The notes under the pieces were generated by a model. It did no database searches, was not told the DNA's origin, and saw only the letters and a program-made list of their open reading frames with translations. DNA of 64,000 bases, from the NCBI GenBank assembly GCA_029717555.1, contig JAMDHS010000040.1:62001-126000 (forward strand), read 5' to 3'. The first letter of the stretch is position 1. Each line of letters starts with the position of its first letter. Shown here piece by piece: positions 6,258 to 64,000 of the stretch. This DNA is from Peribolospora baueri. Lineage: Eukaryota > Basidiomycota > Peribolosporomycetes > Peribolosporales > Peribolosporaceae. A program made the translations under genes and the position numbers.

Positions 6258-6798
6258 GAAGACGGAGGAGTGATAAGTGCGTGCTGGGCCACGCTCTGCC
6301 CTTCTCTTTCTGCGCGCGGTGAGCTGAGCTGGGAGGTGGAGGAGGCCAAGTTGCGACGGCCGAGGAGAGGCGTGCAAGATAACTGCAATCAGTCCAGTCG
6401 GACTCGGTCGTGGTCGCATTAAGTTGGGAGGCGGGCGGATTAGATAAGCAGGATAATGGATCCAACTCGCCAGTAGCAAGCTCTAATAATAATCAGGTCT
6501 AATCAGGTCTAATCGAGGCCAACGCGGTCCGGGAAGCCGTCGTCGCCCGTCGGTTGACGTTTGTTCTACGTCGCAAGGGGACATGACATGTATGCTTACG
6601 CTTGCAATTACTTTACTTTTACGTCTGCATTAGCATTTGCATTTCCCATTTACACCCCCCTCAGCGAAAGGGGCTCCTGCTGCGGCACGCCTCGAGACGC
6701 GACGCGGGCTCCGCTCGATCGGCCTCCTATTCCTATTCTATCCCGCCGACCCGACCGAGCTCCGGCGGCCGCTCTTTGCCCCTCCCTACCATCCCGTG
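6258..6798. promoter_or_regulatory. divergent promoter region, BTB protein / IQGAP
   Basis: 540 bp separating two start codons that face away from each other, so both promoters must lie here or overlap. A short direct repeat (AATCAGGTCT twice, then AATCGAGG) sits at about 6490-6515. No TATA box is obvious. No gene is seen. Confidence 0.5.
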
Positions 6799-9700: not shown

Positions 9701-12451
9701 GCGACGAAACGCAAACTCGAACTGTACCAGGAGCTCTTCTATGTCCTGCAAACACGACCCGACTACCTGGCCCGTCTCTTCAGCCGGATCGCCCGCATTG
9801 ATATGTCCGAGAAGCAGACAAAGACGGTGGAGCGGATCACGCTCACCCTCTTTGGCTACGCTCAAAAGGCACGCGAGGAGTTCCTCCTTCTCAAAGTCTT
9901 CCAGCGCTCCATCCAGGAGGAGTTGTCGCACGTGCATACGATCCAAGAGTTTGTCAAGGGGAACGCTCAGTACATCAAACTCGTCGTCCAGTACAACCGC
10001 GGGGCCAAGGAGCGCAAGTATCTCCGCGAGCTCTTGGGCCCGCTCGTGAAGGAGGTGATGGAGGATGACAAGCTAGACCTCGAGACCGATCCTTGCACAG
10101 TGAGTTCGGACTGAGTCTGTCGGTCTCCGTCGGCCGCGTATGCGTTCCCGCCATCTCACTCCTCGCCTCGCCCGGCTGGCCGTTTCCACGTGACCGAATC
10201 CCTTGCAGATCTATCGCAGCACGATCAACGACGAGGAGAGGAGTACGGGCCGACCGAGTCGGAGGCCGCTGCAGGTCAACTTTACCGAGGCGCTGGCGGA
10301 TCCGCAAGCTCGCACTTTGTTCATCCGGCGTGAGTGGCCGCCTCCCAGCCTCCCAGAGTGCCGGAAATCGCAGGTGTCCTCTGACCTTCGCCTTTGTTCC
10401 ATATTTCGCAGACCTGCAACACCTTCGGGCGGCGACAGAGATGTTCTTGAACGCGATCCTGGCGTCGACGAAAAAGATGCCGTACGGAATCCGGTACATC
10501 GCCAGGGAGGTGTTCCGCGCTCTTCAAGTGAAATTCCCAAACGAGCCGGAGGATGCGCTGTTCAAAGTGGTGGGCCATTTGGTCTACTACCGTTACCTCA
10601 ACCCGGCCATTGTCGCACCGGAAGGGTTCGACGTGATCGAGAACATTGTCGGTCCGATGCAGAGGAAGAACTTGGCCGAGGTGTCCAAGATGCTCACTCA
10701 GATCTCCGTAGGCAAGCTGTTCAACGACGAGAATCCCTATTTGCAGCCGCTCAACGAGTACGTCGGTCAGGCGTCCCAGAAGTTTTCGAATTGGCTAAGA
10801 ATGGGTATGTGGCCGGCTCTCGGCGTAGGCTGGCATCGCGTTGGCGACGTAACATGCTGACTGACCGCCGAGGTTCGGTGCGCTTTCGCCCTTGGCTCTC
10901 TGCCACATGACAGTGATCGACGTCGTGGAGGCCGAGCAGCAGTTTGCGGTGGACGAGTTCATCGACCACAACGTGGTCGAGAAGCCCGTCATCTACATCT
11001 CGCCCAACGAGATCTACTCGCTGCACTCGCTTCTGCTCGAGCAACTCGGTCATCTTGTGAGTTGAGCCGTCGGAAAGTCGGCGATAACTGAGACGGGGTG
11101 CTCACGATCTCGGGTAAACCTCGCGCAGGCTCCGAACAAGGACGACCCGCTGCGCGTGATCCTGCTCGAACTGGGTGGCGCTCCGGTCGGCGGATCGAGC
11201 GAGCTGAACAACGCTCGGTCTGGCGAGATCACTCTAGAGCTGGCCAACAGGCTCACGAACCTGAACGGCCCAGAGGCGGAGATCAAGGCGCTTTGGGTGG
11301 AGACGAAGCGACTGATCCTGTCTGTGCTCAAGGTGCAGACAGGTCCTAGCCTCATGGACGTGCTCATTCAGCCTGTGACGGAGGAGGAGGAGGTGATTTG
11401 GGAGGAGGTCATGAGCGTCGAGCTGGCCGCGGACCAAGAGCAGAGGAAACGGACGAAGAGCGAGCTTCCGCCGTTGCCCGTGGCTGGCGAACCGGTGCAT
11501 CTGGAGGACGTGAGAAGGTGAGTGGAGCGGGGCGAAACGAGGGGTAACGTGGGACCGGAAGTAGGGACTGACGGGGGTTCGTCATTGCGTGACGGGGGAC
11601 AGACTGCCATTCGTGCGAATCAAGGAGCACCTGCTGGAGAACATGTTGCAGCTGGAGCGACTTGGCAAGGTGTCGCGGGAGAACCACTTCCAAGACGTGT
11701 TGGACGCGATCGCGGTGGACATCCGGAACAAACACCGGAAGCGGATCCAACGGCAGACGGAGAAGGCTTCGATGAACGCGACGCTGGCGAACCTGGCGGA
11801 GAAGAAGGCTTATCTTGATGAGCAGATCTCGACATATCATGGGTATATTGATCAGGCAATGCTGACGATGCAGAAGAAGGGGTGAGTAGGAGGGGAAGGA
11901 GGTGGACGTGGGGAGATGGATGGAGGTGACGCTGACCGCGCGCGCTGGCGTTCGTTCACGGTTGGGTGGGTGGTCAGGAGCAAGAAACGGTTCGTGCTCC
12001 CGTTCACTCAGCAGTACTTCCACCTGCGCGAACTCAAGGCGTCGGGCAAGGTGCCCCAGTTTGGGTCGTACAAGTACACGGCGGAGCGACTGTACAAGGA
12101 AGGAGTGTTGCTGTCGATCGACCAAGTATCGCCACGGCAGTTTGATAAGCTCTCGCTGACCATCTCTTCCGACGAAGCGGGGCTGTTCACGATCGAGACG
12201 TCGTTCGCGGGCCTTGCGGGGGAGATGATGGATCTGAGGATTGAGGATTTGTTGGAGGCGCAGTTCAACAACGTCCAGAGCATGAGTCTGTTCGACGGGG
12301 CTGCCAAGGTCAATCTGAATCTGCTCATCCATCTGATCAACCGCAAGTGAGTGAGGCCGATGATGATGGATTTCCAGCGTGGTGACCGCACCGGCTGACG
12401 TTTCGCTCCCTCCCCTCCCTTAATTCACTCACTGCCAGGTTCTACGCATGA
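6799..12451 (+). CDS. IQGAP scaffold protein (Rng2/Iqg1 family)
   Basis: Ten exons: 6799-7779, 7868-8090, 8223-10099, 10209-10329, 10412-10804, 10914-11056, 11129-11517, 11603-11881, 11978-12346 and 12439-12451. All phases agree, giving 1,595 residues. IQGAPs organise the cytokinetic actomyosin ring. Domains in order: Ser/Pro-rich tail 1-260 with a TPVTPVTPITPT repeat; calponin-homology domain about 262-400; at least ten IQ-type calmodulin/light-chain sites in about 430-800 (for example ATKIQAQARGCLARRRYERL); RasGAP-related domain about 860-1230 (KMPYGIRYIAREV, then YYRYLNPAIVAPEGF, the IQGAP form that replaces FLRF); RasGAP-C domain to the end. The last exon is only 13 bp and restores the family C-terminus (LINRKF). 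A TGA immediately after the exon 9 donor would give an almost identical shorter end. Like other IQGAPs it is probably not an active RasGAP. Confidence 0.95.
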
Positions 12452-26415: not shown

Positions 26416-29207
26416 CTAGGATGTATGTGATGACGTATCTATGCCTTCATTTTCTCGGGAAGAAATGATGTCCACGGTCTGAAGCTGTTCAGACCATTCC
26501 ACGACTCGCGGATCCACAGTCACTTTGCTGTGCGCATGAGGATAAGTCCGCAAGTGATACATATTTAGCGAATGAGGCGATGAGAGTGGCGGTGATGCCG
26601 AACAATGATTTCGTGCTCACCTAGGATCAAAGTTGTCAACTTGTAGACCCTGCAAAGACGTTGCCCTGCTGAGAGCAACGTACGCTTGACCTGTACAGAA
26701 AGAAATTTGGCGGTGAATACGACACGGGAAGCCAGGGCGTTTCAAACAAACGCGTCGGTTCACGCACCCGTCGCGAATGCCTTTCCAAGGTCGATCTTCA
26801 CTCTGTCCAATGTCTGCCCTTGGCTCTGTTCATGCGAAAGGAGACGGTCAGAAAAATCTGAACTGAGCCGCACAGGCTCAACAATCAACGACAGTCTTAC
26901 CTTATGAATGCTGATAGACCAGGCCAAGATCAATGGAATCTGGAAAAGGTGCACAGAATCCACGCACCCTTCAGCACCTTCCTTTCCTGTGAAAGCTCCG
27001 CAATCTAACCCACCTGCGTTCTCTTCGCCTGTGTTTTACCCTTCGCGTCCTGCACCTCGAACGTGACTGGCGGGATGATGAGCATCTGACCAGTCGTAAA
27101 TCGAACGATGGGCCATGTCGCCTCGGCCTTCTCCACCTCGGCTCCTCCGCTCGTCTCTTGCTTTCCCACCGGCCAAGCAACCCTAGCGACTCTCAAGATG
27201 TCCTCGTTCACCCGGCCCTCCACCACTCGTTCCGTCTCAAAGTCCCAAAAACCGACCACGATCCCCAGACTCCCGTTGACGAGCCGTTCCAGTTCCATAT
27301 TCTGTATGAGCATGACGCTGGCTCCCAACTTGAGCTCGAGAGAGGTTTGGGCGAGTGTGCAGAGTTCCAGGTACCGTCTGGCGTTCCTCAGGTACTCTTG
27401 TCGCCGTTTCTCCGACTTTTCGCGGTGGAAGGGATAGCGCTGGCTGTAATCAACCGCCGGGTAGATATGAGGCGGTGACGGTAGAGAGGCCAACCTCGCC
27501 CTGTTGGCGGCAGAGACCTGAGCACGCAATGGATAGCTGAGCGACAAGTAGACGCGTCAACGCCCACGTACGCGCCCCGCTAACGCAGCATTCAGAGCTC
27601 GGCCTAGAAGGTCAGAACACGTACAGTTCCACTGCCGGGATGTCGTCGTCGTATTCCACGTTTCGAGACAGTGACTCAAAAACGCTTATCGTCTTTGGAG
27701 TGAGCTTTCCATGACGAACCTCATTCAACATCTTGACAAACTCTGGCCGAGGGAAGGACAACAGAACGTGCGAGTTAGTCACGGATGAAAGAGAGTCACG
27801 CCTAGGTTAAGGCTCACCCGGGTCCTCCTGACGGAAGACCGTCTGGAGCATTAGCACATCCTGTACGCAATCCGTCCAAGTCTTGGCGTCGAACACAAAG
27901 CGCGAACGATATCCCGCCGCCTGATCTTCGGGCGCAAGACCCATGGACTCAAGCATGTATCCCTCTATGAGCTCTTCGTAGCTCAGTAAGGGCTCCTCGT
28001 TCGTCCTCAAAACCGGAGGGAGCTGGTAGAAGTCGCCTGATAGGATGAGTTGAATGCCACCGAAGGGCCGAGGGTCCCCGCGAAGTTTGCGGGCAAGGTA
28101 TTCCAACTTGTCGAACAGGACGGCGTCCAGCATGGAGACTAGAGAGCAGAAGCACGCGCCAGCAAAGCCCAACGTCAGCCATGCACCTTGTTACAACCAC
28201 TGCAAAAATTGAAGCCTGCCCTTACCTTCATCGATGATCAGCACTCGAACTTCCCTCCACTTCTTTATCCGTCTCTTCTTTTTCAGCAAAACCTCAAGCT
28301 CCTCTTTGGATCCCTTTCCAATGCCAATACCTTCGAGCATGAACGCAGACGTAGCAGTACGGATTCGTGAGCTCTCGACAGCCCTCGCTTCCTCACTGAC
28401 GGGGATAGAGACGAACCAGCCCAGGTATGAAGCGTTCCACCTCCGATCATATTTGCGGCGATTCCCGTGGTGGCAGTAACGGCCACGGCCGCTTTGCCGT
28501 GAATGCGACGTAGATCCTCGATGATCTTGCGGAGCAAGACCGATTTTCCCGCGCCTGACAAAAAAAGAGGAGGAGAAACGGAGACGCTGCTATGGGTAAG
28601 CACGAAGATGTTCTGAATGAAAGGTGAATGAACTTACCGGCACATCCCGTGAAGAAGATGCTCCTGCCGTCCTGAACAACCTTTTGTCGCACCGCCTCCT
28701 GCTCCTTGGAAAGGCTGATATTTGGAGGCGATAATTTAGCGGCAGCCTTTCCCTTCCATATCAATCCCCCCTTGGACTTGGGGGCCAGAAATGCGGCAAG
28801 CGTCGATGGTTGATCTGGATCTAGGGAAAAACATGCACATTTTGAACCGAAGTGGCGAAGCCGGGTTGGTGAGTTTCTCGCTTCGAGGATCGGACATGCG
28901 CAACGGAATGCTCACCTGGCGCACCCAGTAAATTAAGACGAATGTACTTCTCCGCCTCCTCCGTTGATATAAACCCCCTGGCTCTGCAACCTTTATATCC
29001 CCGAGTGTGCTCTTTCACATCGGCCCTGTGATTAAAACAGCGCCGTCGTATTCAGTCCTCGGCCTGGTGCGCGCTCGGTGCGACATCGGATATGCAAGGC
29101 ACAAGGCGCACACACCATGTTTCATAGACCCTGGCGCCATGTCTTCCGTTGAGAGTAGCGTAGCAAGAGAAGCGCTGCCGGGCGAGGGCGATCAGCGACC
29201 GTTGCAT
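26416..29207 (-). CDS. PIF1-family DNA helicase with N-terminal RNase H1-like hybrid-binding domain
   Basis: Twelve exons; the first six are 29207-29116, 29025-28916, 28820-28638, 28554-28417, 28330-28226 and 28138-27818. The rest lie at about 27750-27590, 27541-27017, 26939-26902, 26828-26771, 26692-26625 and 26531-26416. Residues 1-20 ([20 protein letters not shown]) look like a mitochondrial presequence. Residues about 24-59 ([19 protein letters not shown], then [11 protein letters not shown]) match the RNase H1/viroplasmin RNA-DNA hybrid-binding fold. Helicase motifs follow: Walker [11 protein letters not shown] at about 127-136, Walker [16 protein letters not shown], a UvrD-like C-terminal block (LNGS-type [47 protein letters not shown]). 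PIF1 helicases unwind G-quadruplexes, R-loops and forked DNA in nucleus and mitochondria. The exon 4 donor is GTTCGT, a weak site. Divergent from EMC6. Confidence 0.93.
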
Positions 29208-32423: not shown

Positions 32424-35400
32424 ATGGTGCGCTATCCGGCCGCCACGTGCGAAGATTCGTGCGGCCTGTCGTGCCGACGCTCACGAGTGAATCCTGATAT
32501 TGTATTCCAGCCAAAGGACTACGACCGGAGTGTCAATGCCAAGCCCGCTCGAGGCGGCCCTCCCATCGTCACCACTGGCAGCTCAAAGTCGGTCGCTCTC
32601 AGTTCGTTGCCGCTGTCATCCTTCTCTTCGCCTCCTCGCACCGCCCGATCCGCAGAGTCCCGCTCGCCGGGCTCTCCGACAAGGCTAAGTTCTTCGCCAC
32701 CTCCCTCACCTTCCGATCGTGTTGGCGGACGACCCGGGTCTTCGAGCCTAAGATGCCTTTCGTCGCCCACGAGCAAAGGCAAAAAGACTGGCCGGTACTC
32801 CCAGCATCAGTTGTCGTCACCACACGCATTCCACATACAGGAACCCCGTCCCGTTCCTGAGCCGACGACGTCCGGTAAGATCCCGCCTGAAGGCCACGGA
32901 TCAGGTCTCTTCCGGCATGAACCTTCTTTCAGCGCAACACAATACTCCGATCGGATGGAGTCGTCATCGTCACCATCGCAAGCTTCGATGGGCCAGCGCT
33001 GCTTCGTCGACATGAACGAATCCAGCTCACCCATGGCGGTGACGGAGGACCTAGACGACGCCGCGCAGCTGCAAGATCTCGGGATTGGATCTCTAATCGA
33101 AACCACGTTCGCTTCACCTTCAACCGTATCTCCACCAGGCTTGCCGGCAGAGTCACGAACTCTGAATGAGCATGGAGTGCAGATCCAGCTGTCGGATGAG
33201 CAGGAGCGGCTGAGACGCAAGATTGTAGACGAGGGAAAGTCCATCTTCTTCACGGGATCTGCGGGTGAGCGTACGATCCATTTCTCTATCGATTTGCCCT
33301 CGTCCTTGTGTGCACAGGTACTCGGCGAGGCGACGTCATGGCGTTCTTACCATCTCGCATGCATTTTGTAGGGACGGGCAAGTCAGTCCTTCTTCGACGG
33401 ATTATAGCTGACCTCTGGGACAAGTATGGCAAAGAGGCCGTAGCGGTGTGAGCCCCGTTTAACTTTACGCGGTAGAGACGTCGACGCTCAGATTTTGTCG
33501 GACTGCATCCTTGATAGAACCGCTACGACGGGCATCGCTGCAGTGAACATTGGCGGCACAACTTTGCACTCTTGGGCGGGTGAGCCTTGAAAATCACGAG
33601 GCCTCGCTTTCGCATGCTGTCGAACTCGCACTGATCTGTATGCGTTACAGGTATTGGGCTCGGCAGAACTCCCGTTCTTGAACTCCGCCGCCAAGTTTAC
33701 TTCACTCCTCACAAGGGGGTTCGACAACGTTGGCTCGGCACGAAGGTGCTGGTCGTGGACGAGAGTGTGTGTCTGATCGTCTCCGATTCATCTCGTGCTC
33801 AATATCTGGCCTGCTCACCGTACCGGCCGTTCATCCTCCAGTTTCCATGCTTGACGCCATTGTCTTCGATAAATTGGACCATATCGGCGGTTACGTGCGC
33901 GCCATGGACAATTTGGGGCATTTGCAGGACGTGGATGAAATCCCCCCAGAGAACTTTACTCCTTTCGGAGGAATTCAGCTCGTGCTGTGCGGTGAGTCTT
34001 ATGGTGCATCATAGCTTGAAAGGGACGCTCCTTCGTCAAGGTTTCGAGATCTTCACTCGATCCTTAAAGGTTGTTCTTCCATTAGGCGACTTCTTCCAGC
34101 TCCCACCTGTGATCAGCGATGGCGACTCTGTTCGACTTACTCTTGAAGAACAACGACTGAAGAAAACAGACGGAGTAAGGGCTTGGGAGGGCAAGCGAGC
34201 CTTTATGGACGAGCGAGATCGTTATCACCCCACCCGCTTCGTATTTGATGCTCACGGATGGAGAAGATGCGTTCAAGAGATACATGTGCTCAAGAAGGTA
34301 TGGAGGCAGAAAGATGAAAGTGGGTAACGGGTGTTCCTTTGATTAGCAAGCGCATACGATCCCCCCTCTCAGTGCTCCACGTGTTCCCGCTCTAGCCTTC
34401 GTAAAACTTCTTAATCAAGTCCGGTTCGCCAAAATGACCCAAGAAACGGTTGAAGTGTTCCGGACTTTGGAGAGGGAGATTCCGTCGTCGGCCGCGGGGG
34501 ATGTCACAGAACTGTGAGCTCGCAGCTTTCCACGTCCGCTCGCACTGGTACTCAACCTCCTTTTGGCTCGGTGAAACAGGTACCCGACACGAGAGGAAGT
34601 CGGCAGGGTCAACCAGAAGAGACTGGTCGTTCTACCGGGATCGACACGTACCTTCTTCTCCAGAGACCTTGCCCCCCCTTGGGTCGAGTTCCCGGGCAAC
34701 TGGGAGCCATCCAAGAAGGAAGGATACGTTAGGAGGAAGCTCGAGCACAACGTGATGGCGCCGCAAAAGCTCGATCTCAAGGTTGGCGCGACAGTGATGC
34801 TAATCAAGAATCTCGCGCAAGACGGGTTGGTCAACGGCAGCACAGGCAGGGTCATCGGGTTTCGGAGGCTAATGCACGTCGAATCTGCTCAGCAGCAAAA
34901 GTCTCAGGAGACGAGCATGACGAAATTATCAGACGGAGGAGAGGCGTCGGCAGAAGAGGCGACGTTGCAACACGTCGGTATTGCGCGCCCGGCTGACGAA
35001 AGGAAAGTCGACGGCGCGCTGGCGATGATCCAAGCGGAACGACAGCGGATCGATGCTCGACGAATGGAGGAGGCTTCCAGCGCCGGAAGACTAGTCAACG
35101 ACGCTGCGTTGCCGAAGAAATTGGCCTATCTTGGGACACAAACAAACTCTGCATCGCCGCCCATGTCCTCTTCCAGAAACGCCAAGAAAGTGAACATAGG
35201 CTCGGGCAGAACGGGCATGGGAAGCGAGTTCGATGCGATCCCCGACATCCCATGGCCGGTGGTGCAGTTCTCGTCGGGTCAAACGCTCATCATTCCGGAG
35301 ATGTCATTCGAGGTGCAGGATGCGGTGGGCAATGTCGAGGTGGTGCGGAAACAGGTTGGATCCCTATTTTTCCTTGTCCTCAAGCCCCACGCACCGGTTA

Positions 35401-36163
35401 TTGAAATAAGCTTTTACGATGTTTGCGGGGGTCTGTAGGTGCCTCTTCTGCATGGATGGGCGCTGAGGTGAGTTTGATGGAAATCTCGGAAGAAGTATTT
35501 GGTGTGAATTCCGATTCTAACTGCCCATCCGCGTTCTAGCATTCACAAGTCTCAGGGACAGACGCTCGACCGGGTGAAAATTGATCTTGGACGGACGTTC
35601 GCACCTGGTAGGTGGTAGACGTGCGTGGCCTTTGACGCATTCGACGACGGCTCGCTTCATGAACCGCTTGTTCCGGTACTTTCTACCACACTCCAGGTCA
35701 AGCCTACGTCGCCTTGAGCAGAGCCACGTCGCTGGCCGGCCTTCAAGTGCTCAATTTTCGGGCCGAGTGAGTAGACTTTGTGGCCTGATCTTTACGGTCA
35801 TTGACGTGCCGTGCCGTCTTTCCTCATCCACTCTTTTCTTCTTGCTGCCTTCGGAATGGCCGATCCAGAAAGGTGCGAGTAGACGCTCGCGTCCTCCAGT
35901 GGGTTCAGACGATCGAGGGAGCGCCGTGTGCACCACTCCCCCTTCCGCCTTTTGAGCGCCGCCGACAGCCACAACCCAGCGGTCGCGGCAGGTTTCACAA
36001 CGGGCGCGGGAAAGGAGCGGGCGGGAGGGGCGGCGGCAGAGGTCGGGGAGAGAGCGTGCGGATCCGTGGGCCTTTGGACGACGACGACGAGGAGTTGTTC
36101 GGAGACATGACGGCAGAGGACGAGCAGGCTATCATCGCCACGATGGAAGAGGCCGGCTTCTAA
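32424..36163 (+). CDS. PIF1-family DNA helicase with Ser-rich N-terminus and RGG-type tail
   Basis: Twelve exons in phase: 32424-33264, 33372-33447, 33518-33579, 33651-33764, 33842-33991, 34086-34319, 34396-34513, 34580-35354, 35439-35467, 35540-35607, 35697-35766 and 35869-36163, giving 943 residues. The helicase core has Walker [37 protein letters not shown], the GD-FFQLPPV motif, [33 protein letters not shown] and [17 protein letters not shown]. The 270-residue N-terminus is disordered, Ser/Pro-rich, and has no hybrid-binding domain. A polar insert of about 120 residues interrupts domain 2B. The tail has an RGG-rich segment ([17 protein letters not shown]) and an acidic end. It is a paralogue of the PIF1 gene at 26-29 kb and lacks a mitochondrial-type leader, which suggests a mainly nuclear form. 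The start is the first ATG of the frame. Confidence 0.92.
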
Positions 36164-51215: not shown

Positions 51216-51543
51216 TGTACAGTAACCCCTCTTCCATGGAATCCAACTCCGTTTCCCAAGGCGGAGCAGGCGAGTGGGGCAACGTGCCACTCTATGAAGA
51301 GGCGTGATCGGAGCATGTCTACACCTGGCAATGACCTTTTTTCCTTGTCTGTACTGTACCTGCCGTCCTCCGAGGCAGTTCCACATGCCCGACATGGCAC
51401 GCACGATCCCTGGCTCAGAGATTTCCCGGGGCAATTGCGTCTCACAATAGCGGCGAGACGGCGAGGAGGCGTGGCTCCTGGCCCGGCCTAAATTAACATG
51501 AGTACAGTGAAGCGGGGCCCGCCCAGAGTCAATATAGAGGAGC

Positions 51544-51680
51544 GTCAATATGGAGTCGACAGGAGACACGGAAACGAGAGTCGATATAGAATCGAGAGTC
51601 GATATGGAATCGAGAGTCGATATGAAAAAGAAAGTCAATATGGAATCGAGAGTCGATATGAAAAAAGAAAGTCAATATGC
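51544..51680. repeat. 18-bp tandem repeat abutting the PKS 3' end
   Basis: About six to seven imperfect copies of an 18-bp unit of the form GTCGATATGGAATCGAGA, with variants GTCAATATGGAATCGAGA and GTCGATATGAAAAAGAAA. Units alternate between the two types, so an 18-bp and a 36-bp period are both visible. The array ends only a few bases from the stop codon of the PKS-like gene at 51,683 and therefore lies in its 3' untranslated region or terminator. Confidence 0.85.
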
Positions 51681-51682
51681 AG

Positions 51683-54600
51683 TCAAAGAGCAAGGTAAGA
51701 GGCGATCTTGCCCATCAGCCCCTCGTCGACGACGGGGCACGTCTGCAGGGCTTGCGAGCATGCGGCCGTCTCCTCCACAGACAAAAGAGCCGCCCCGCCG
51801 ACAATTTCCTGCTCGTCCTCATTCTCGAGTTGCCTTTCGAACCAAGGAAGGAGGTTGGTCGCATCGTACTCAATGCTCGACGACGAAAGCTGCTTGAGGA
51901 GGGCGACATAGTCGCGAAAGTTGGTCGGTCTGACCTTGATGCCCCACGCCTTGGCGGCCGCGGTGCAAATGTCGGCCCATTCCGTCCGGTGCGGGTTGGC
52001 CACATGGTAGAACAGGTTCCCCGATCGCTGCTGTCCCACAATCTCCACCATGCTCCTGGCAGCGACGTCGACCGGGACCCAGTTCGTCGCGACCAGGTCG
52101 TAGGGGACGATGCCGTTCAGAGCGCGCATGGTCGTCAGGACCCGTGGAGCCCATTCGCCTCTGCGCCACCGGCCTCGCTCGAGGTCGCCGCAGACCTGGC
52201 CCAGGCGGACAATGTGCAAAGGATCGCAGCCGACGTCTGCGGAAAACGAGGAAGAGCACGATCGACACAGCGCCGACAAAATGTGTTCGGCCAAGAGCTT
52301 GGACATGCCGTAGCCCTTTCGATGCGCGATCAATCGCAAATGTCAGCACATCGAGTCGCGCCGAAACAAGCGCCGTCGTGCCCACCCAGCCTTCGCGCGG
52401 ACCATCAAATGCTCACCTGGTAGATTGCCATCGCCGGATCAAGCTGCACGGGCTCCTCGGGAACAGTCTCCTGCGGGGACCCGATGCACGACGCGATGGA
52501 CGAAATGAAAAAGAGGTCGATCGGCCTCTCTCGGTGGAAACACAGTTCGGCGAGATTGCGCAACCCTGTAGCGCACGGGAACAGACTTCCTGTTAGAAAC
52601 GCGCCTGCAGCCCTGGAAAGAAGTGTGCGGCTGCTCACCGCCAAGCGAGGGCTCGTAGTGTTTCAGACTCCGGTTGAAATCGACCTGCCAGCCGATGTGC
52701 ACCGCGCCCGTGACGTCGCCGAGGGAAGCGTAGTCGGCTTCGCTGAGGCCCATATGAGCAGCGGCGAGGTCCGTCGACGAAAGCGCCTGCAACTCGCCAG
52801 CTTGATGCTTTTGCAACAGGAGCACGTCGTCGAGACCCCATGCTTTGCATGCGCCAGAGATGCGCTCGAACCCGCCGTTACGGACGATAGCAGTGACTCG
52901 CGTGCGCGTCGTGGCCAGCAACTGAGAGAGAAAAAATGCGCCGACAAAGCCGGTAGCGCCCGTCAGTAAGAGGTGCGGGGGCACGGTTCCGCATGGTTCG
53001 TGAGGCCGGTCCCTGCGCAGGGTCGTCGCAGTGAACGGCGCTGCGTAACGGGACAGCATGTCGAGCATCTCCTCGCGATGCAATATATGGCCCGTCGGCG
53101 TCGAACAACTTCCTGACAGGTACCTCGCGAGCGCTCGTGCGTCGGGACAGTCGTAGATGGCGCGGGTCGACACATCCATGCCCAGACGGTTAAGCTCCCG
53201 TCTGAGATGGGTCGTCCCCAACGAGTCGAGGCCGAGCTCGACAAATGGCGTGCACGGCTCTATAGATTTCGTGTTCGCGTCCACGGGCAGGACGCGTCCG
53301 AGGGCCGATAAGACGGCCATCTCCAAGCTGTTGAGACTGTAGACGGAACGTTGGAACAGGTCCAATGTCAACCCTCGTGCCAGGAATCGCTCATACACAG
53401 ACCGGGTCTTCCCTTACCTTTGTCGATCTGGGGATAGCGGCGTCGGCGGGAAAACCTCGGACGTAGGCCGAAGGGGATATGGCGGTGACTTGATCAAGGG
53501 AAGCTCGGCACTGTGTCGGGCTTGCGACCTTCTTCGCAGTGGAGAGAATGTGGGAGACGGCCACAGGAACTGCCGGTCGAACGGATACGTGGGAGTTTTG
53601 TGCAACTTGCGGGCCACCGAAGCCGTGTCGCGGTGGAAAGCTGCCCAGTCGAGATCGGCGCCTCGGTTATACATCGTGCTCAACGCGAAAGTGACATCCT
53701 TGCTCGTGTTCGCTGGCTGCAGTGAGGGTACGACAGACAGACTCGTCGTTCTCAACAGGAGTTTGGTGAGCTCGGGCTCCGGGCCGATCTCCAAAGCGAG
53801 CGCCTCTTTGGGCAACGCGCTGCTGCAGATGGCTTGGAAGAACCGCACGGGCTGACAAGCCTGTCGCATCCAGTGTGCGGCATCTGTTCGGTCCACCACG
53901 TCGCCGGTGAGCGAAGACACCCATCGAATGGTGGGCCGCTTAAACGCGTAGGACGATTCGAGAGACGTGAGGAACGTCGCGAAACGGCCGCTGATGAGAG
54001 GCTCCTCCAGTTCCTGGACGTGGAACGGTTGCTTGCTGCGAAGACCACGAAGTGACAAGCGCTTCAGCGTGGCAAGTTGGGCGAATTTCTGTAGGGCCAC
54101 CTCGGAGCCGGACACCACTTGACGGTCCGCCGCATTGTACGCGGCGATGACGGCGCCGCTGTCTTCCGCTAGGGGGAGAACCTCCTCGGCGCTGGCGGCG
54201 ACCGAAATCATGCCTCCGGAAACACGACTCGAGGCCATTTGCATGGCCCTTCCGCGGTAGCACACGAGTTCCAGACCCTGCTCCAACGTCAGACTGCGCG
54301 ATACGATCGCAGCCGAGTATTCGCCGAGCGAATGCCCCACTACGACGCCGGGAGTGACGCCCCACGTTTCCCATGCGGCGGAGAGACAGAGTTGGAAGGC
54401 CACCAGCAGAGGCTGCAGGACGACGGTGTCGTCCGGCTCGTAGACGTCCGCGCCGTCCTCGAAAGTCGGATCGTCGGCGTCCACCAACGCTTGAAGATCG
54501 AGGCCGATAGCGCGTCGCACGACTTTGGCACACCTTTCCCACGTTTGCCGAAAGGCATAAGACTGCTCCAGTAGCGCTGGAATCTGGGATAGGACGGCCA

Positions 54601-57600
54601 CCGCGGACGATTGGCCGGTGAAGACAAAGACGATCGGTGCACGCCGCGTAGCCACGGAGGAGGACCCGGCCAAAAGCGAAGCAAACCCGTCGAGGTCCTG
54701 GAGCATTTGGCGTCGGCAGGAGACAGGTATAGCGATGCGATGTGAAAAATGCTCTCGCCCAATGTTGGAAGTATAGCAGAGGTCGGAAAGACCGGGGAGT
54801 GATCCGGCAATATAGTCCCGCCACTCGCGCACGCTGTTGAGTAGCGAAGTCGTCGTCTTTGCCGAGATGGTCAAAACAGGCAGTTTGACACAAGAGGAGG
54901 CACGCCTCGGCGGGGGAGGCTCTTTGAGGACCAGCTGGCCAATCGTTCCAGAGAAGCCGAGCGAGGTGAGCATGATCCTCCGTGGACGCGCCGTACGCTC
55001 GTAGGGAACGTGCTCCAGGGGCACGACCATCTCGCAGGGTTGCAATCGCAGGTCGGAGCGCACTCTTCGGATGTTCTGCCCAGGCAGCAGGTTGTTCTCA
55101 AACGAGGCCACGGCACGAGCGATGCCTACGGACGGTGATAGGCAACGCGGCAAGCAGGGACGTCAGGCACGGCCGGCCTTCAGACATAGGCGGCAGCGCT
55201 CACCTGCAAGGCCAGCAGCTTCTTCCAAATGGCCTACAACGGACTTGACCGACGACACGAACAGGGGGTCTTTGCGCTCCTGAGAAAAGGTCGCCTTGAG
55301 CGCTTCCATCTCTGTCGCAGAAAAGAGGAGCTGAGCATAAGGGGACCTGCTCGCTTGGCAGCGCCTCCTCGAGCGCGCCCTCAAACTCGGTCACCATTGT
55401 TGCTCACCGAGTGCATCCCCGAGCCTTGTCCCTGTGCCGTGAGCTTCGACGGCGTCAATGTCCTCCGGGCGCAATCTCGCCGATTTTAGGACGTTCTGCG
55501 CAAGCCTTATCTGCGCTGCCGCATTGGGCGCCATTAGACCGATGGACTTTCCATCGCTTCCGATGGACGTGCCTTCGATGATGCCGAGGACGGGATCTTG
55601 AGCGGACACGGCGTCATTTAGCCGCTTCAACACGCAGAAGAAGGCCCCTTCCGAGGGGAGGTACCCATCTGCCTCCTCGCTAAATGCCGCGCTGTGTCCG
55701 CACGCCGAACCGAGGCCTGCCCTCGACATAAACGCAAAGTTGCTGGGGTCGAGGTGCGTTGTGGTGGCGCCCACGAGGGCCAGCTGAGTGGTTCCAGCTC
55801 TCAAGTCCTGACATGCGAGGTGAATGGCGGTCAAACTGCTCGAGCAAGACGTTTCCACGGTCATTGCAGGCCCGTGCGTGTCAAGGAAATAGGCCAGCCG
55901 CCCGGAGACCATGGCGTTGGATTGGCCCGGTCCCCAGAACAGATCGTGCGCTGCTTAAACGGAAGGATCGGCGCCGGACAGATCTTAGTTGGAGACCGCG
56001 ACCAATGGAGAGCCGACTGTTCGATAGCAAAGTTGGGGGACTCACCGTCGTTGCCCTTCCCTTCCGTCACCTTCCGAAAGCCCTCGTCATCGACCGCGGC
56101 CACGTAGATGGACGTGTCTGTATCTTTCAAGGTCGACGGAGGGACACAAGCGCTCTCCAACGCTTGCCAGGCGAGCTCGAGCGTCAGCCGCGCGCTGGGC
56201 CGCATGGCTTCGCCTTCGGCCGCCGAGAGGCCGAAAAATGCCGCGTCCATCTCTTCGACGCCCTGCACGCCTAGCCAGCGGCCAGGAGGAAGCTCCAACC
56301 CCGTTTGGCGTTCATATTCTGCAAAGGCGGTACGGCGCGGTGGCGCCGGTGACGCTGGAGAAAGGCCGCCCTGAACGATGGCTTGCCAGAACTGGTCCAG
56401 CGTGTGAACGTCGTCTGGCAGGCGACACGACATGCCGATCACCGCGATGGCCCCGTCGGAAGAGGTAGGACGCTGGGGGAACCCGGCGGAGGAGTCGGGA
56501 TCGACCTCCGCTTTGATGGTTTGCGCTACGCGCGGTTTCTCTGCGCGGACGATGCCAGCAATGCTGCCTCTTGTAATGACTTGGGCAGCGGTAATGTCAA
56601 GGCCGACCTCGCGACGCAGGGCGGTGGCGATACGGCTGGCGTCGAGGGAGCTCATTCCGAGGTCCGTGAGGCTGTCCTCATCGCCGAAGGAGAACTCGCC
56701 CTTCGCGGGCCCGAGGAGCATGTTTTCCACGACCCGCCTGACGTTGGCCATGACCTCAGGATCAAGGCGCTGTAGGCTCGGGTCATCGCCGCCTTGGAGG
56801 CGACGATCAGGCTCATCGTCAGATAGACCGAGGACGCGGAGCACTTGCTCCGCGCGAGCGTCGATCAAGGAGCGATAAGCGCCCCACACCTCCTTGGTGC
56901 TGACGGTACCCTTTCGAGTGAGCGGGATGGCCTTTGACGGTGGGAGGACAATTAGTTGTCGAGGGCTGATGCGCGCAAACGGCGGCAAAACACGATTTGC
57001 ATGAAGGAGGCTGCCGTAAATGTAGTCGAGGCGGGCCTCGCCGGAAGCAGAGGGTGAAGTGTCCGGGTTCTCCACCACCGCCAACAAAAAGTCGCTCAGC
57101 CCGTGTTGACTTGGAACCCCCGCATAAAAAAGGAAGCGTCACGTCAAGAGACAGACACAGAGGTGCTCGATGCATAGCAAGGCACTGCCACGCACCTGTT
57201 CCCGATTACACAAGCTCTGCCAAAACCGCCCTTGTCTCGAAGCACCCTCTCCACCTCGAGCGAGTTGCATTTCTCGCCCGTCTTGAAAATGATGTAGTCA
57301 GCGATCCTATCTCCGCCTACAAACCCGGAGGTCGTCCTCTTGAAGACGCAGCCTGTGCGGAAGACGCCTTTGCCCTGGTCGTCCAAGCCCTGCAACGCCG
57401 GATCAGACCGTCCGATATATGCCGCCGGAATGCCCTTGGACTTGATGACAAGCTCGCCAACGTCGCGCTCGTCAAAGCCGGGCACGGTCTCGACAACATG
57501 CTCGAAAGTGGGGATCGGGAGAAGCGTCTCGGTCGAACTGCCGGGCGGACAGTCTGCGGCGGCGCGGCTGAACATGATGGCACCTGCGACCGAGAGGGCG

Positions 57601-58847
57601 GGGTGAACGTCCAACGGCGCCTGGGGACATGGGATTCTTGGCAACGTCGGCACTTACCGGCAGCCTCCGTACTTCCGAATCCGTTCACCATTCGAAGCCT
57701 CTGCGCGTCCGCCCAATCCCTCACTTCCGGCGGGATGGGCGCGCCTCCGACAAGGATGACGTCCAATGCGGATAGGCAGTCGTCGTCGTCCGCCGATCTG
57801 CACTGTTGCCACGCGGACACGACGACTGGCGTGCTGGTGAACGAGGTGACCCCATTTTCCTTGATCAGGCAGAGGAGATCCTTGGCTCCCTCCATTGTGG
57901 TGATCGGGGCGATTTTGGGCAAAAAGTTATAAGTGCCGCCGGTCGCGACGCAGATCGCCATCCACTCGGCGCAAAGGCTGCGAGCGTGCAACGGTCAAGT
58001 TGAGAAAAATGGGGAGAAATGGGGGAAGGATGGACAGAGCGTGGCCGACTTACGCAAGGATGTGGTTCAGCGGCATCACCGCTAGCAATTGCTGTGGCCT
58101 CTCCCTGACACGATCGTGCAAGAGCGCGTGGACACCGCGCACGCTTTGGAGCAGAGCATAGCCGGTCAAAGGGACGCCCTTGATGGAGGCGACCGACACC
58201 GCCGTCGTGGTGAACATGAGCAAGGCGGGCTTGCGAAAGTAGTGATCCTCGTCCAGAGCAGCCGCCCGGTCAGAAAGGCGTGAAGAAAAAGACGCGGAGG
58301 ATCGAGGCAGCTCGTTGTCGGATCGCTTGGTTGGTGCCGCAAGTGCAACTCGAACCACTTCGGCGAGGCACTGCCACTCTAAGCCGTCCTGCGAACACAC
58401 CTCCTTCACGATGCTTTCCACACTCTGGGAGCAGAAGCAGCAAACGCACTTGGAAAGGGACAGCATGCCGGCGAGAATATCGGAGCTGACGCCGTGGGGC
58501 ACAAGGGACACCGTGCATCCCAGGAGCCATCCAGCGAGCATGACCAGCAGGAATTCTGGCGAATTGTCCGCTACGATGGCGAAGGTGTCGCCCGGCCGTA
58601 GACAGTACCTCTTGGAGAGGTGGCGAGCGATGTCGTCGACATAGACCAGCGCCTCTCTGTAGCTAAAGGCGGCGGGGAGGTCTGCTCCAGACGCAGGCGA
58701 CGGGCTCCTGCTCGCACCGTTGTTCCCATCCGCGGCGCCCAGACGACGAAGAAAGACGGCATCCGGGTTGACGTGGGTAGCGGACGCATGAAAGAACAAG
58801 TAGGGGTCGCTTTCGCTCTCCGAGGGTATGAGGACGCTGTCGTGCAT
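51683..58847 (-). CDS. hybrid acyl-adenylating PKS: AL-ACP-KS-AT-ACP-thioester reductase
   Basis: Ten exons: 58847-58054, 57977-57658, 57583-57196, 57109-56046, 55950-55408, 55311-55204, 55125-53418, 53336-52639, 52568-52423 and 52312-51683. All are in phase, 2,132 residues. Adenylation-type domain about 10-600 (NGFGSTEAAG; A10-like LTRKGTVSTK). Carrier 1 has LGMSSL, Ser about 655. Ketosynthase about 720-1140 has active Cys about 891 (VETSCSSSL), His 1026 (VEAHGTGT) and His 1064 (VVGHLEEAAG). Acyltransferase about 1235-1560 has Ser 1338 (GHSLGEYSAA). Carrier 2 has LGLDSL, Ser about 1680. The reductase has TGATGFVGAF at about 1767 and YGMSK (Tyr 1925, Lys 1929). KR, DH, ER, methyltransferase and condensation domains are absent. 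The order recalls hispidin synthase, but a reductive release domain ends the protein. It is divergent from a PAL gene. The start could also be the upstream ATG at 58,967. Confidence 0.9.
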
Positions 58848-60101
58848 CTTCGGCGGCGGCTCATTGCATCGTGGGATGACGGCTCTCAAAGACGTAGAAT
58901 GTCTTATAGTCCGTGCACAGACGCCCTCCCGCCCGGCCTGTGCAAGGGTGGAGCCGTCCGCCAGCACCGCCCCTACAAGCCAAGCGATAGCCGAGCCAGC
59001 CCATGGCTTTGAAGGGATGTGTCCTCGCCGACCTCATCACATAGTGAATCGGCCGTCCGACCGCTGGGCAAGCTTCTGTTTTGCACCCGCTCGCTCAGTC
59101 AGTCGTCCGGCTCCAGCCCCAGCAGGCTCAGCTTCATCCGGCCACACCGTTCGATCCGAAATGGGGCCGCTGTAGGCGTCTGCTGCGTGCCTGTTGCACG
59201 CCGCCAGCACGTTTCTTTGTCTTGATGTTGTCTCGGTACGTTGGCCTGGCGAACGCCGCGGAGATGCGGCTCTTTCTACGACTGGCATGTGTAGTGCGGC
59301 TGAAGCGATTGTTCGATCGCCAAGCTGCTTGCCGCCGGAGGTTGACAGAGGTCGCTTTCGCGCTGGAGTTACACCCGTCTAATGGTTAGGGCGCAGGCTA
59401 AAATAGTGTCGAGAGCCGCTCTGGATCCACGTAAGGTCGATCTTGGCTGCGGACGCCCCCTCCGCTCCACCCGTTCTCAACGTCGTCACACCACAAAACG
59501 TCGCGGATGAAGCCGACAGCCACGCTCGCACTGACGGACACACGCCACGTCGCAGGGACGAGGGAGCTGTCCGGCTCGTTTCAAGGCCAGCCGTGCGCGA
59601 TGGATTTAGGGCCGGTCTGGCTTGGGCGTAGCGACGAACTACTGCAATCGGTGTCGGCGGCCGTCGAGCCGAGTCTCATGCTGCGTCTTGGTTCAAAGCC
59701 GTCCTGGAGCTTCAAGGCAGTGCCGTTGGTGACGAGACGATAGAGAACTGTTGTCCTGTGCCGCTCAAGCTGCTCGCCGGCCGCCTCACGGGATGCGAGG
59801 TTGCGGAGGTCCGAATTCGCTCGCGCATTCCAAGGCGATGGCACCAGAACGTGAGGAGCTTCCGTCTCTCGCTCAGTCACCAGTTTCTGGCGCACAAGGC
59901 AAGGTCTTTTCCGCCGTGGTTGGTGACCCTCACATCGCTCTCTCGGGAGCTCATCTGCTTAGGGTCGTGCCCCCACGTCGGCGCTCGTTTGGATCGGCAC
60001 TCGAGGAACCTGGACGCTGGCAGCAGCAGCTCTCCGTTGCGTGGCCACGGCATCACAGACGTTTAACTTGCCCAGAGTGCGACAGGTCCCTATCTATTTA
60101 G
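58848..60101. promoter_or_regulatory. long divergent spacer between PKS and PAL
   Basis: 1.25 kb between two divergent start codons, the longest promoter spacer in the window. Short open frames (for example 59,507-59,743 and 59,751-60,101 on the plus strand) lack any recognised motif and usual splice structure. It is the natural place for a shared, inducible control region; a decayed gene cannot be excluded. Confidence 0.5.
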
Positions 60102-63100
60102 ATGCCATCTGCCATCTGCGCCGACAAGCATTCCTCCCCCGAAACGGCTGAGCCCTCTATCCGCTCCTTCTCAGTCAACATGAGCCCCGCTCGTCACTTT
60201 GCGTCTCATGCTGTGGCGCCTTCTGACCCCGTCGGTCCTCTGGCCGCCGAGTGCGTCGCCTCATGGCAGCGCCTTCAAGCTTTGAGGAGCCACAGCTCGC
60301 CATCGGCGACGACGCCAGCTCTTCTCCAGGTGGACGGGCAGACAATGAGCATCGCGGACGTGGTTGGCGTAGCGCGGTGAGTGATGCCGACCGAGTTGCC
60401 CATGCGACCAGGGTGCCGAGCGCAAAGGCAGGACCCGTTTCTTCGTCGTCTTCGTTCTTCGCGGCCCCGGAAAGAGGTTAGGAGCTCAGAAGGAAAAAAA
60501 GAACCGCGAGGACGTCATAACAAACAAAACAACATTAGTAGGCCACAGACGGAAACGGCTCATCCTGACTGATGCTCTTTCCCTTTCTCGCCGTCCAATC
60601 CCCCGGTCCCACTCGCTCGGCACCGTTGCGGCATTTCGACCCCCCAGCTACCATGTCGTCCCGCAACTGAGCGACTCGTCCGTGGTTCGCTCTAAGGTCG
60701 ACGCGGCTGTGACGTGTTTGGTCGCCAAGCTCGAGGCCGGCGAAAGCCTGTACGGTATCTCGACCGGGTTCGGAGGCAGCGCTGACAGCAGGACGGGCGC
60801 GCTGCACGCACTTCAGGTACGTGGCCTCGGAAATGTTTTGTCATGCCGCACAGGAGACAAGCAAAAGGGGTAATTCCGTCATGCCGTCGAGACGTGTGCG
60901 GCCGTTCGTCGCCATTGGCGAGTGAGATTTTGACAACGGCTTCCTGCCTTGCTGTCGCTCCCAATCGTTCCTTCCCCTGGCGTCGTTTCCTATCCCCCCA
61001 CCGCCAAATTCCCAGCTTGCCCTTCTCCAGCACCAACAAGCCGGCATCCTGCCAGTACCCGCAAAGCTTGATGGAAACATCGGTCTGCAGCACCGTTTGC
61101 CCGACGGAGATGCCCGCCAGAACGGGACCGGGCACCAGCAGGGAGCCCTGAAGAAGAAGCCGCTCGGCTTATCAGACGAATTGGCCAGTCTGTCCATGCC
61201 CGAGAGTTTCGTGCGTGGCGCCATCCTCGTTCGGATCAATTCGTTGCTCAGAGGCCATTCTGGTGTGAGGTGCGCAAGGGCATGACCCACGAGCGGCCGT
61301 TCTAACTCGGGCAATGCCACTCGCTGCTCACGCGTGCGAACACATGTTCATCCTTCTTCTGTCGCCACTTCGTTTCCGCCTTTTCATCGACGGCCTTCTT
61401 ATGGGCATCGTTTCCAATCGTCGCGTCGACGCTAGGTGGAAAGTCATAGAGGCGATGCAAACGTTCTTTTTCGCCTCCCCGCTGGGCCCCGTCACCCCGT
61501 TGGTGCCCTTGCGCTCATGTGAGTCGGCCTCGATGGCTTCCAGTGGGAGTGCTCATAAACTCGATCGTCGCTGACTGGCGATGTTATTTCTAATTGGATC
61601 CGTACCCTTACTGCAGCCATCAGCGCCTCTGGCGACCTCTCTCCCCTCTCCTATGTAGCTGGAGCACTCACAGGTCACCCTGGCTTGCGTGTCTGGCAGA
61701 ACCGGTGAGCATTGATTTTTTTTTTCCGCTAGAGTTGTCGAGGCCGAGATGCGCCGATGCCGCTTCGGACTGCCGGTCCCTTTTGTTGAAGTGGTCCGCA
61801 CTCCTTGCTGCGCTCGTAGGGCGGACGGAGCTCGGGAACTCGTTTCCTCCGACGACGCGCTCAAGGTCCACAGCATCGAGCCGATCACTTATGAACCCAA
61901 GGAGGCACTCGGCATGGTCAACGGTGAGCCGCGCGGCAGCCGGGACTGCTGATCGCCGTAACCGGGCCTCTTCTCATCGTGTTTCACCCGGTCTCACATC
62001 CCGTCTGTCTTCGGCTCCACAATGCGCCAATCCAAAGGCACGGCGTTCTCGACCTCGGTCGGCGCCCAAGCCGTCCATGACGCTAGCTTCCTGGCCCTGC
62101 TGACAGAGTTCACGACGGCCATGGCTGTGGAGGCGCTCTGTGGTACAGATGGATCTTTCATCCCGTGAGCCGCCTTTGCGCTTTGATGACATTTTGCTCA
62201 TTTGCCACAGGATCTGGGCCATGGTCTAGGGCGGTGCTGATGTGCATGCTCTCCTCAGCTTCATTCACGACGTCGCTCGGCCCCATCCTGGCCAAGTGGA
62301 GAGCGCAGCGACTCTTATGAGCCTCCTGGACGGCTCATCGCTTGCAACGCATGTCGCCGACGAAAAGGCGACGCTACTCGGAGAGGACGATGGACACCTC
62401 AGGCAGGACCGCTACTCTTTGCGTACGTTCTAGGCACGAGGTTGCCGAAGCCCGCTCATCGCTCATTGCAGGCATCTAAGCTGCTGTTGCCGCCACCGCT
62501 CCCACCCCGTCTCTGCGACAAACTTGTAGGCACCGCTGCTCAGTGGATTGGCCCACAGATAGAGGACATCAGGGCGGCGCGTCGGGCCCTGGAGATTGAG
62601 ATGAACAGCACGACGGACAATCCGCTCATTGATGCCGAGAGCAACCACTGCGCTCACGGCGGCAACTTTCAGGTAAGAGGAGCGAGGCCCCGGCGGAGGG
62701 CGACCAAACTACGAAGTGGGATAGCGGAAGGATGTCAAAGAAAAGGAATCTGAAAATTCGGACGATCCGCTCGGCCGTGGTCCTACGCAGGCCATGTCCG
62801 TGACCAACGCCATGGAAAAGGTCAGGTTGGCCCTAGTCCACCTAGGTAAGTCGCGACATAGAGGCGCTCCTTTCGATTCATCTAGCTAAGCCCCTCGCTC
62901 CACCGCCGATGACTCGATAGGCAAGCTTACCTTTGCTCAGCTCACGGAACTGATCAATCCGAGCATGAATCGCGGGCTCGCCCCCAACGTGAGCACATGT
63001 CGAGTGGGGCTGACCACGGTTGTCCGGCTGACTCTGCGATGCTCCTGATCGACGGAAACCATCCCTCCTGCTATAGCTGGCTGCCACCGATCCGTCGCTC

Positions 63101-64000
63101 AACTATCATGGCAAGGGCGTGGACATTGCCATCGCCGCCGTGACTGCCGAGCGTGAGTGGACCAGTTGTCCGTCTTGGCTAGGAAGGGGGAGACCGCGGG
63201 CTGAACCGGCGGTCGTGTCACTTCGATGCTTTCAGTCGGCTTCCTCGGATCGCCTGTGTCCACTCACGTCCAGAGTGCCGAGATGCATAATCAGGCCGTC
63301 AACTCTCTGGCCCTTATCTCAGCCCGCAAGACAGTCGAAGCCGTCGAGGCGCTTTCAATGGTACGTTTCGCACTTTGAGGATGGCCTGGGTGCGTCTATG
63401 GTCCGCTGACTATCTGCCGACTTTCTCGCACCGTAGATGCTTTCCTGGGCGCTTTACCTGCTTTGCCAAGCCGTTGACCTGCGTGCGCTACAAAAAAGGG
63501 TCTCGACCCAGTTGGAGAGGTACGTGGTCGACTCGGTCAAAGCCCGCTTCGGCGACCTATGGGGCCCGGCCGAAGCCGCCATTGCGGCCGCGAAGGTTTA
63601 CCATCGCCTCGCGAAGCGTCTCGCGGAGACGACCACAATGGACCTCAAGGAGAGAATGGCAGACTCGTGCGCATTCGCGAGCTACGAGCTCTTGGAGAGG
63701 TGAGTTTGGAGCTCTGTCTAGCTGCATTTTCCCCATCGCGCAATGTCCGCTGAAGGTTTGGTCGTCGTGACAGGTGTGAGCAGGGTGCCAAGGCGGGCGC
63801 CAGCGACGCATGGGACGCTGTGACGGCCGCCTTTGCTTGCCGCGACGAGTGGGCCGCGTACGGGGAGCGACTCTTCCTGTCCGAGACAGAGGCTTTGCTC
63901 TCCTCCCCGTGCTCTTGTCACGCTGCGCCGCTGCTCGGCCGCACGCGCACAGTGTACGAGTACGTGCGCAAGGAGCTTGGCGTGCCCGTGCACGGCATGG
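60102..64000 (+). CDS. PAL: phenylalanine/tyrosine ammonia-lyase (3' end beyond window)
   Basis: At least fifteen exons, starting 60102-60376, 60648-60816, 61016-61269, 61436-61518, 61617-61704, 61733-61923, 62038-62164, 62259-62422, 62530-62672, 62791-62845, 62921-62988, 63077-63152, 63236-63360, 63437-63699 and 63774 onward. About 769 residues are visible. The MIO-forming triad is Ala264-Ser265-Gly266 ([18 protein letters not shown]). The catalytic Tyr is 127 ([17 protein letters not shown]). Further hallmarks: [36 protein letters not shown] and [15 protein letters not shown]. The substrate-selectivity pair is His154-Gln155 ([11 protein letters not shown]), as in yeast-type enzymes that accept both Phe and Tyr. 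It removes ammonia to give trans-cinnamate or p-coumarate. About 45 more residues are expected beyond the edge. The N-terminus is somewhat longer than in Rhodotorula PAL. Confidence 0.95.

Follow-up and report, generated by a model that had tools for sequence, protein, structure and literature searches.

Several described systems share parts of their organization with the locus considered here. SwnK, a hybrid synthase of the swainsonine pathway, is described as terminating in a reductase and having the domain order A-T-KS-AT-KR-ACP-R (PMC8403587), and hispidin synthase (HispS) as comprising AMP-binding, ACP, KS, AT, and ACP domains (PMC9866795). FnsA, the naringenin synthase of Pestalotiopsis fici, is reported as an A-T-PKS hybrid that loads p-coumarate; the same report places the proposed chlorflavonin hybrid in Aspergillus campestris and counts 502 fungal NRPS-PKS hybrids, only five of which have a known function (PMC9606254). 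An initial annotation of the locus had cited "Pestalotiopsis CfoA / fungal FnsA" hybrids, a muddled attribution, since it is FnsA that comes from P. fici. In the strobilurin cluster, a phenylalanine ammonia-lyase (PAL; Str11) is reported to supply the starter of the polyketide synthase PKS1, and a separate CoA ligase (Str10) is present (PMC6158276). The reductase domain of the Neurospora crassa carboxylic acid reductase NcCAR (structure 8aep) is reported to convert thioesters to aldehydes and, in addition, some aldehydes to alcohols (PMC10168641).

In the window, by which we mean the whole 64,000-nucleotide stretch of Peribolospora baueri DNA analyzed here, a hybrid synthase gene on the minus strand (51683 to 58847) lies next to a PAL gene on the plus strand (60102 to 64000, with its 3′ end beyond position 64000). 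Both genes were rebuilt from the sequence, and the head-to-head arrangement that had been proposed for them was borne out. The two form a genuine pair with a probable biosynthetic role. We tentatively read it as a divergent two-gene unit at the edge of a probable fungal cluster, in which the lyase would make a starter, the synthase would extend it, and the product would be released reductively; we place this reading somewhat short of probable. The synthase model comprises 10 exons (58847-58054, 57977-57658, 57583-57196, 57109-56046, 55950-55408, 55311-55204, 55125-53418, 53336-52639, 52565-52417, and 52315-51683, minus strand) separated by nine introns of 73 to 101 nt, all of them GT-AG, and it encodes 2,134 amino acids in a single open frame without a stop. 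Pfam matches and motifs on the spliced product gave the order AMP-binding (AL), ACP, KS, AT, ACP, and reductase (R). The AL-ACP-KS-AT-ACP-R order given by the initial annotation therefore held, and its length of 2,132 residues was corrected to that of the rebuilt model. An N-terminal AMP-binding domain and carrier followed by KS-AT is also the layout of fungal NRPS-PKS (A-T-KS) hybrids. An array of an 18-nt tandem unit, GAGAGTCGATATGGAATC (6.7 copies over 51540-51660; array 51540-51679), abuts the stop-codon end of the synthase gene.

The KS and AT domains (residues 721 to 1551; 53690 to 56451, minus strand) were recognized from Pfam, from motifs, and from a match to the CurL KS-AT, the closest solved structure (E = 7e-129). 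The catalytic motifs of the KS (residues 721 to 1088) were intact, with the Cys in VETSCSSSL and the His in EAHGTGT and GHLEEAAG, as was the GHSLGE motif of the AT (residues 1238 to 1551). Pfam found two carrier-protein stretches, both with intact motifs: LGMSSL in the first ACP (residues 651 to 656; 56644 to 56661, minus strand) and LGLDSL in the second. The second ACP starts about 100 residues after the end of the AT and forms, together with the terminal reductase, the segment from residue 1650 to the end (51683 to 53314, minus strand). The reductase matched NAD_binding_4 (PF07993; residues 1766 to 2013; E = 1.5e-21) and kept the TGATGFVG motif, the Ser, and the Tyr/Lys set (GYGMSK), in agreement with the terminal reductase that had been claimed. 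In NCBIfam searches with single exons, TIGR01746 matched exons 8 and 10, below its curated cut-off. Among solved structures, 8aep matched the domain best (E = 1e-26), in an alignment that took in the SSI and GYG.SK regions, and MxaA came second (E = 3.2e-17). No KR, DH, or ER was found in the synthase by Pfam at an E value of 0.001, so keto groups should survive. Outside the active site, the KS differs from that of CurL (MRPSAR for LDPQQR and GTIGQ for GTNAH, within 53690-56451, minus strand); given these departures beyond the catalytic motifs, the whole synthase seems divergent.

These features both align the synthase with the described systems and set it apart from them. SwnK has A-T loading, KS-AT, a second carrier, and a terminal thioester reductase in the same order; however, by its description it contains a KR and its starter is an amino acid (pipecolate), whereas no KR was detected here and the complete A-T-KS-AT-KR-ACP-R order was therefore absent. 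Set against that description, the AL resembles acyl/aryl-CoA ligases and has degenerate ATP motifs, and a PAL adjoins the gene. The first five domains match those of HispS, and neither enzyme has a KR or DH, but HispS ends at its C-terminal ACP without a reductase and makes the pyrone hispidin from caffeate, whereas the synthase ends in a reductase as judged by Pfam. FnsA (A-T-KS-AT-DH-KR-ACP-TE) likewise has an N-terminal A-T that feeds KS-AT, and it accepts p-coumarate; it differs in having DH, KR, and TE domains and a proposed release by cyclization rather than reduction, and its neighbors were judged unrelated by its authors. The strobilurin cluster, also from a basidiomycete, resembles the locus in that a PAL, there the source of the starter, is clustered with a PKS but differs in its highly reducing PKS1, its separate CoA ligase, and its benzoyl starter. 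In NcCAR (A, carrier, R), the reductase domain is the solved structure nearest to the R domain; in the synthase, KS-AT-ACP lies between the first carrier and R.

Reductive release is already known for such hybrids from SwnK (PMC8403587). The initial annotation had not recognized the combination of starter supply and reductive release in a two-gene locus; each is known singly, from the strobilurin cluster and SwnK, respectively, and the combination was not seen in the literature searched. No A-T-KS-AT-T-R synthase beside a PAL was among the literature matches listed, in a search that mostly excluded subscription papers. The architecture string, in six spellings, occurred in no paper text, a weak negative because figures and supplements lay outside the search. 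As the comparison did not extend to the 502 hybrids in the FnsA report, this architecture may have been recorded before. Two nonfungal sequence collections were scanned in a way that finds close relatives only. The viral collection (viral_contigs) contained no synthase relatives, and the genome collection (genome_contigs) gave 19 pattern matches with one confirmed, in a Poribacteria MAG, which covered residues 860 to 1537 (KS-AT) only, at 29% identity. Being a KS-AT match only, this locus was set aside as uninformative on fungal architecture. The lyase-synthase pair had no relative in either nonfungal collection.

The AL domain and its C-terminal subdomain span residues 60 to 585 (exons 1 to 4; 56857 to 58670, minus strand), with matches to AMP-binding (PF00501; residues 60 to 424; E = 6e-36) and AMP-binding_C_3 (PF23562; residues 467 to 585; E = 6.3e-12). 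Its ATP-binding motifs are not those of an intact adenylation domain. The A3/P-loop, FTTTAVSVASIK (58179 to 58214, minus strand), is degenerate: other residues stand in place of both glycines, although the lysine is retained, and the A7 motif reads RTGC instead of RTGD (57348 to 57359, minus strand), an exchange of Asp for Cys. As comparators, we used AMP-binding loci from three bacterial genomes (54 distinct open frames of at least 420 residues), of which 17 matched the AL by phmmer at an E value of ≤1e-3; all 17 were aligned. The P-loop glycines and the A7 TGD were present in 17 of these 17 sequences and missing from the AL, although the comparators are bacterial rather than fungal and are not fully independent, as two of them (L012 and L029) look like one gene. 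The AL stretch aligned to the comparator P-loops was TTAVSVASIK, and the P-loop mismatch was also seen in two alignments with oxalate/oxalyl-CoA ligases. The AMP-binding signature PS00455, in what we take to be its pattern, had no match anywhere in the synthase protein. Since its strict form occurred in only 12 of the 17 comparators, this absence alone is weak, and the joint loss of the glycines and the aspartate is the stronger observation. A missed intron or a frameshift is unlikely to have caused the odd P-loop and A7; other frames restored no standard motif. With the glycines and the aspartate lost, it is doubtful that the synthase itself activates a phenylpropanoid acid, which weakens the original proposal of acid loading by the PKS.

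Among solved structures, the AL was closest to 4-chlorobenzoate CoA ligases (E = 1e-12), then to a luciferase and a fatty-acyl-CoA synthetase, with 4-coumarate CoA ligase (E = 6.9e-9) and then feruloyl-CoA synthetase further down; NRPS A domains matched at E = 6.1e-5 or weaker. Single AL exons matched mostly fatty-acyl-CoA synthetase models in NCBIfam, with amino acid adenylation weaker and all matches far below the curated cut-offs. By these comparisons, the AL appears closer to aryl/acyl-CoA ligases than to amino acid A domains, which fits an acid starter without naming one. The term "phenylpropanoid-type" used for the synthase at first is weakly supported: 4-coumarate CoA ligase and feruloyl-CoA synthetase are among the AL relatives, but the 4-chlorobenzoate ligases matched best and the NCBIfam matches were mostly fatty-acyl.

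It is conceivable, if somewhat unlikely, that the AL is a nonadenylating relic or has a structural role. The synthase would then be an ACP-KS-AT-ACP-R enzyme primed by an acyl-CoA, or by malonyl or acetyl units via its own AT. Any use of the lyase product would then require another enzyme, a CoA ligase encoded outside the window, to activate it. In favor of this reading, the AL has lost both P-loop glycines and the aspartate of RTGD, whereas the motifs of the KS, AT, ACP, and R domains are preserved, and a separate CoA ligase does operate in the strobilurin pathway (PMC6158276). The AL nevertheless retains A5 (GFGSTE), the A8 arginine and aspartate, and a histidine at A4, and the motif of the first ACP is intact. 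The A10 region points both ways: a TRKGT stretch lies near A10, but its lysine is out of line with the A10 lysine of the comparators. Some divergent ANL enzymes may also tolerate changes of the P-loop and A7 type, which again argues against a relic.

By its sequence, the plus-strand gene is a fungal-type phenylalanine ammonia-lyase. It has 15 exons, encoding 740 amino acids in the window, and 14 introns of 74 to 271 nt. The density of introns is in keeping with a basidiomycete. The PAL motif set was found throughout, with the MIO triad Ala-Ser-Gly (61625 to 61633, plus strand), the Tyr loop, the His-Gln selectivity pair (61031 to 61036, plus strand; seen as a motif, in ALLQHQ, and in the alignment), QDRY, DNPLI, and HGGNF, and the protein matched PF00221 (E = 9.8e-138). 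The best solved relative was the PAL chain 1y2m (E = 2.2e-155), which we take to be the Rhodotorula enzyme; identity was 44.2% in the first aligned block (95 positions) and 53.2% in the second (404 positions, counted without its less similar C-terminal columns). Exon 15 reaches base 64000, and the alignment stops 40 residues before the end of the 716-residue Rhodotorula PAL chain. The MIO triad, the HQ pair, and PF00221 thus confirm the PAL-like lyase announced by the initial annotation, but the gene is cut by the window end and calling it complete was wrong.

The region between the two start codons (58848 to 60101; 1,254 bp) contained no segment scored as coding. With codon usage trained on both genes, 0 segments were scored in 58851-60101 versus 92 above the cut-off in the window, a weak negative because the same cut-off caught no more than about 3 of the 15 exons of the PAL gene, so that a gene with short exons could be missed. 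A raw count gave six CGG..CCG pairs in this sequence, which has a GC content of 61.5%, and was set aside. On the PKS side, 20 of the 78 scored segments starting below 51,600 were searched with Pfam. Half of these 20 had a match above the family cut-off (IQ/RasGAP, gamma-tubulin complex N-terminal, Ras, Pif1 2B domain [2 segments], CLPTM1, Cns1 wheel, ubiquitin-conjugating enzyme, EMC6, and clathrin adaptor). Of the others, 6 were without any match and 4 matched only below the cut-off, to a CH domain, to CLPTM1 in a second segment, and to two unlikely families. No tailoring genes were recognized among these 20 of 78 segments. That the recognized genes are of the housekeeping or helicase kind suggests that the cluster ends on the PKS side; further cluster genes, if any, would then lie beyond position 64000. 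Rfam (gathering threshold) and tRNA scans of the window gave no matches. Elsewhere in the window, a long open segment at 8222-10090 (plus strand) carries IQ motifs as well as the beginning of a RasGAP domain, and the weak CH domain lies ahead of it at 6718-7815; together they form an IQGAP-like gene. The two Pif1 helicase 2B segments have opposite orientations (27041-27553, minus strand; 34593-35420, plus strand) and occur with an 81-nt inverted repeat (28633-28713 and 33189-33269; 73% complementary), and they are perhaps what is left of a mobile element.

Many fungi have PAL, and the two genes could be chance neighbors, with a lyase that serves general phenylalanine catabolism and a synthase that makes an unrelated product from another starter. 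We consider this unlikely. The active site and HQ pair of the lyase match the Rhodotorula PAL at the identities given above, the recognized PKS-side genes are of the housekeeping kind, and nothing links the AL specifically to phenylpropanoid ligases, all of which speaks for chance; it is, however, improbable on general grounds that a PKS should come to lie head to head with one of few PAL genes by chance. A decaying megasynthase on its way to becoming a pseudogene, suggested by the degenerate AL motifs and the KS departures from CurL (MRPSAR and GTIGQ), is very improbable, as the 10 exons run without a stop or frameshift, the introns are regular, and the catalytic motifs of the non-AL domains are intact.

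In our tentative reading of a lyase-fed two-gene unit, the lyase would convert phenylalanine to cinnamate, and possibly to some p-coumarate. The first ACP of the synthase would hold the acyl starter, malonyl units would be added to it by the KS and AT with the keto groups left unreduced, and the terminal reductase would release the chain, as an aldehyde, from the second ACP. One extension would yield a β-keto aldehyde such as 3-oxo-5-phenylpent-4-enal, and the released aldehyde might be over-reduced to an alcohol or cyclized. Family membership provides good evidence for the predicted lyase step and reductive release; we infer that the lyase product is the starter, as we do the extender, the number of extensions, and the product. 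The route of the starter to the first ACP is in doubt because of the degenerate ATP-binding motifs of the AL, which may still work weakly, or the starter may be fed by a separate CoA ligase. A more specific proposal, which we regard as quite improbable, is that a KR-less, reductively releasing synthase has a loading domain without ATP-dependent adenylation and receives a cinnamoyl-type starter by another route, with a dedicated lyase.

With a lyase-linked hybrid that releases its product reductively, β-keto aldehydes would become accessible through a tractable route of two genes, and the gene pair may make a new aldehyde-type metabolite. The degenerate AL poses the testable question of whether the synthase starts without adenylating its acid. 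If true, nonadenylating loading, a dedicated lyase, and reductive release would constitute a new start-and-stop logic for fungal polyketides.
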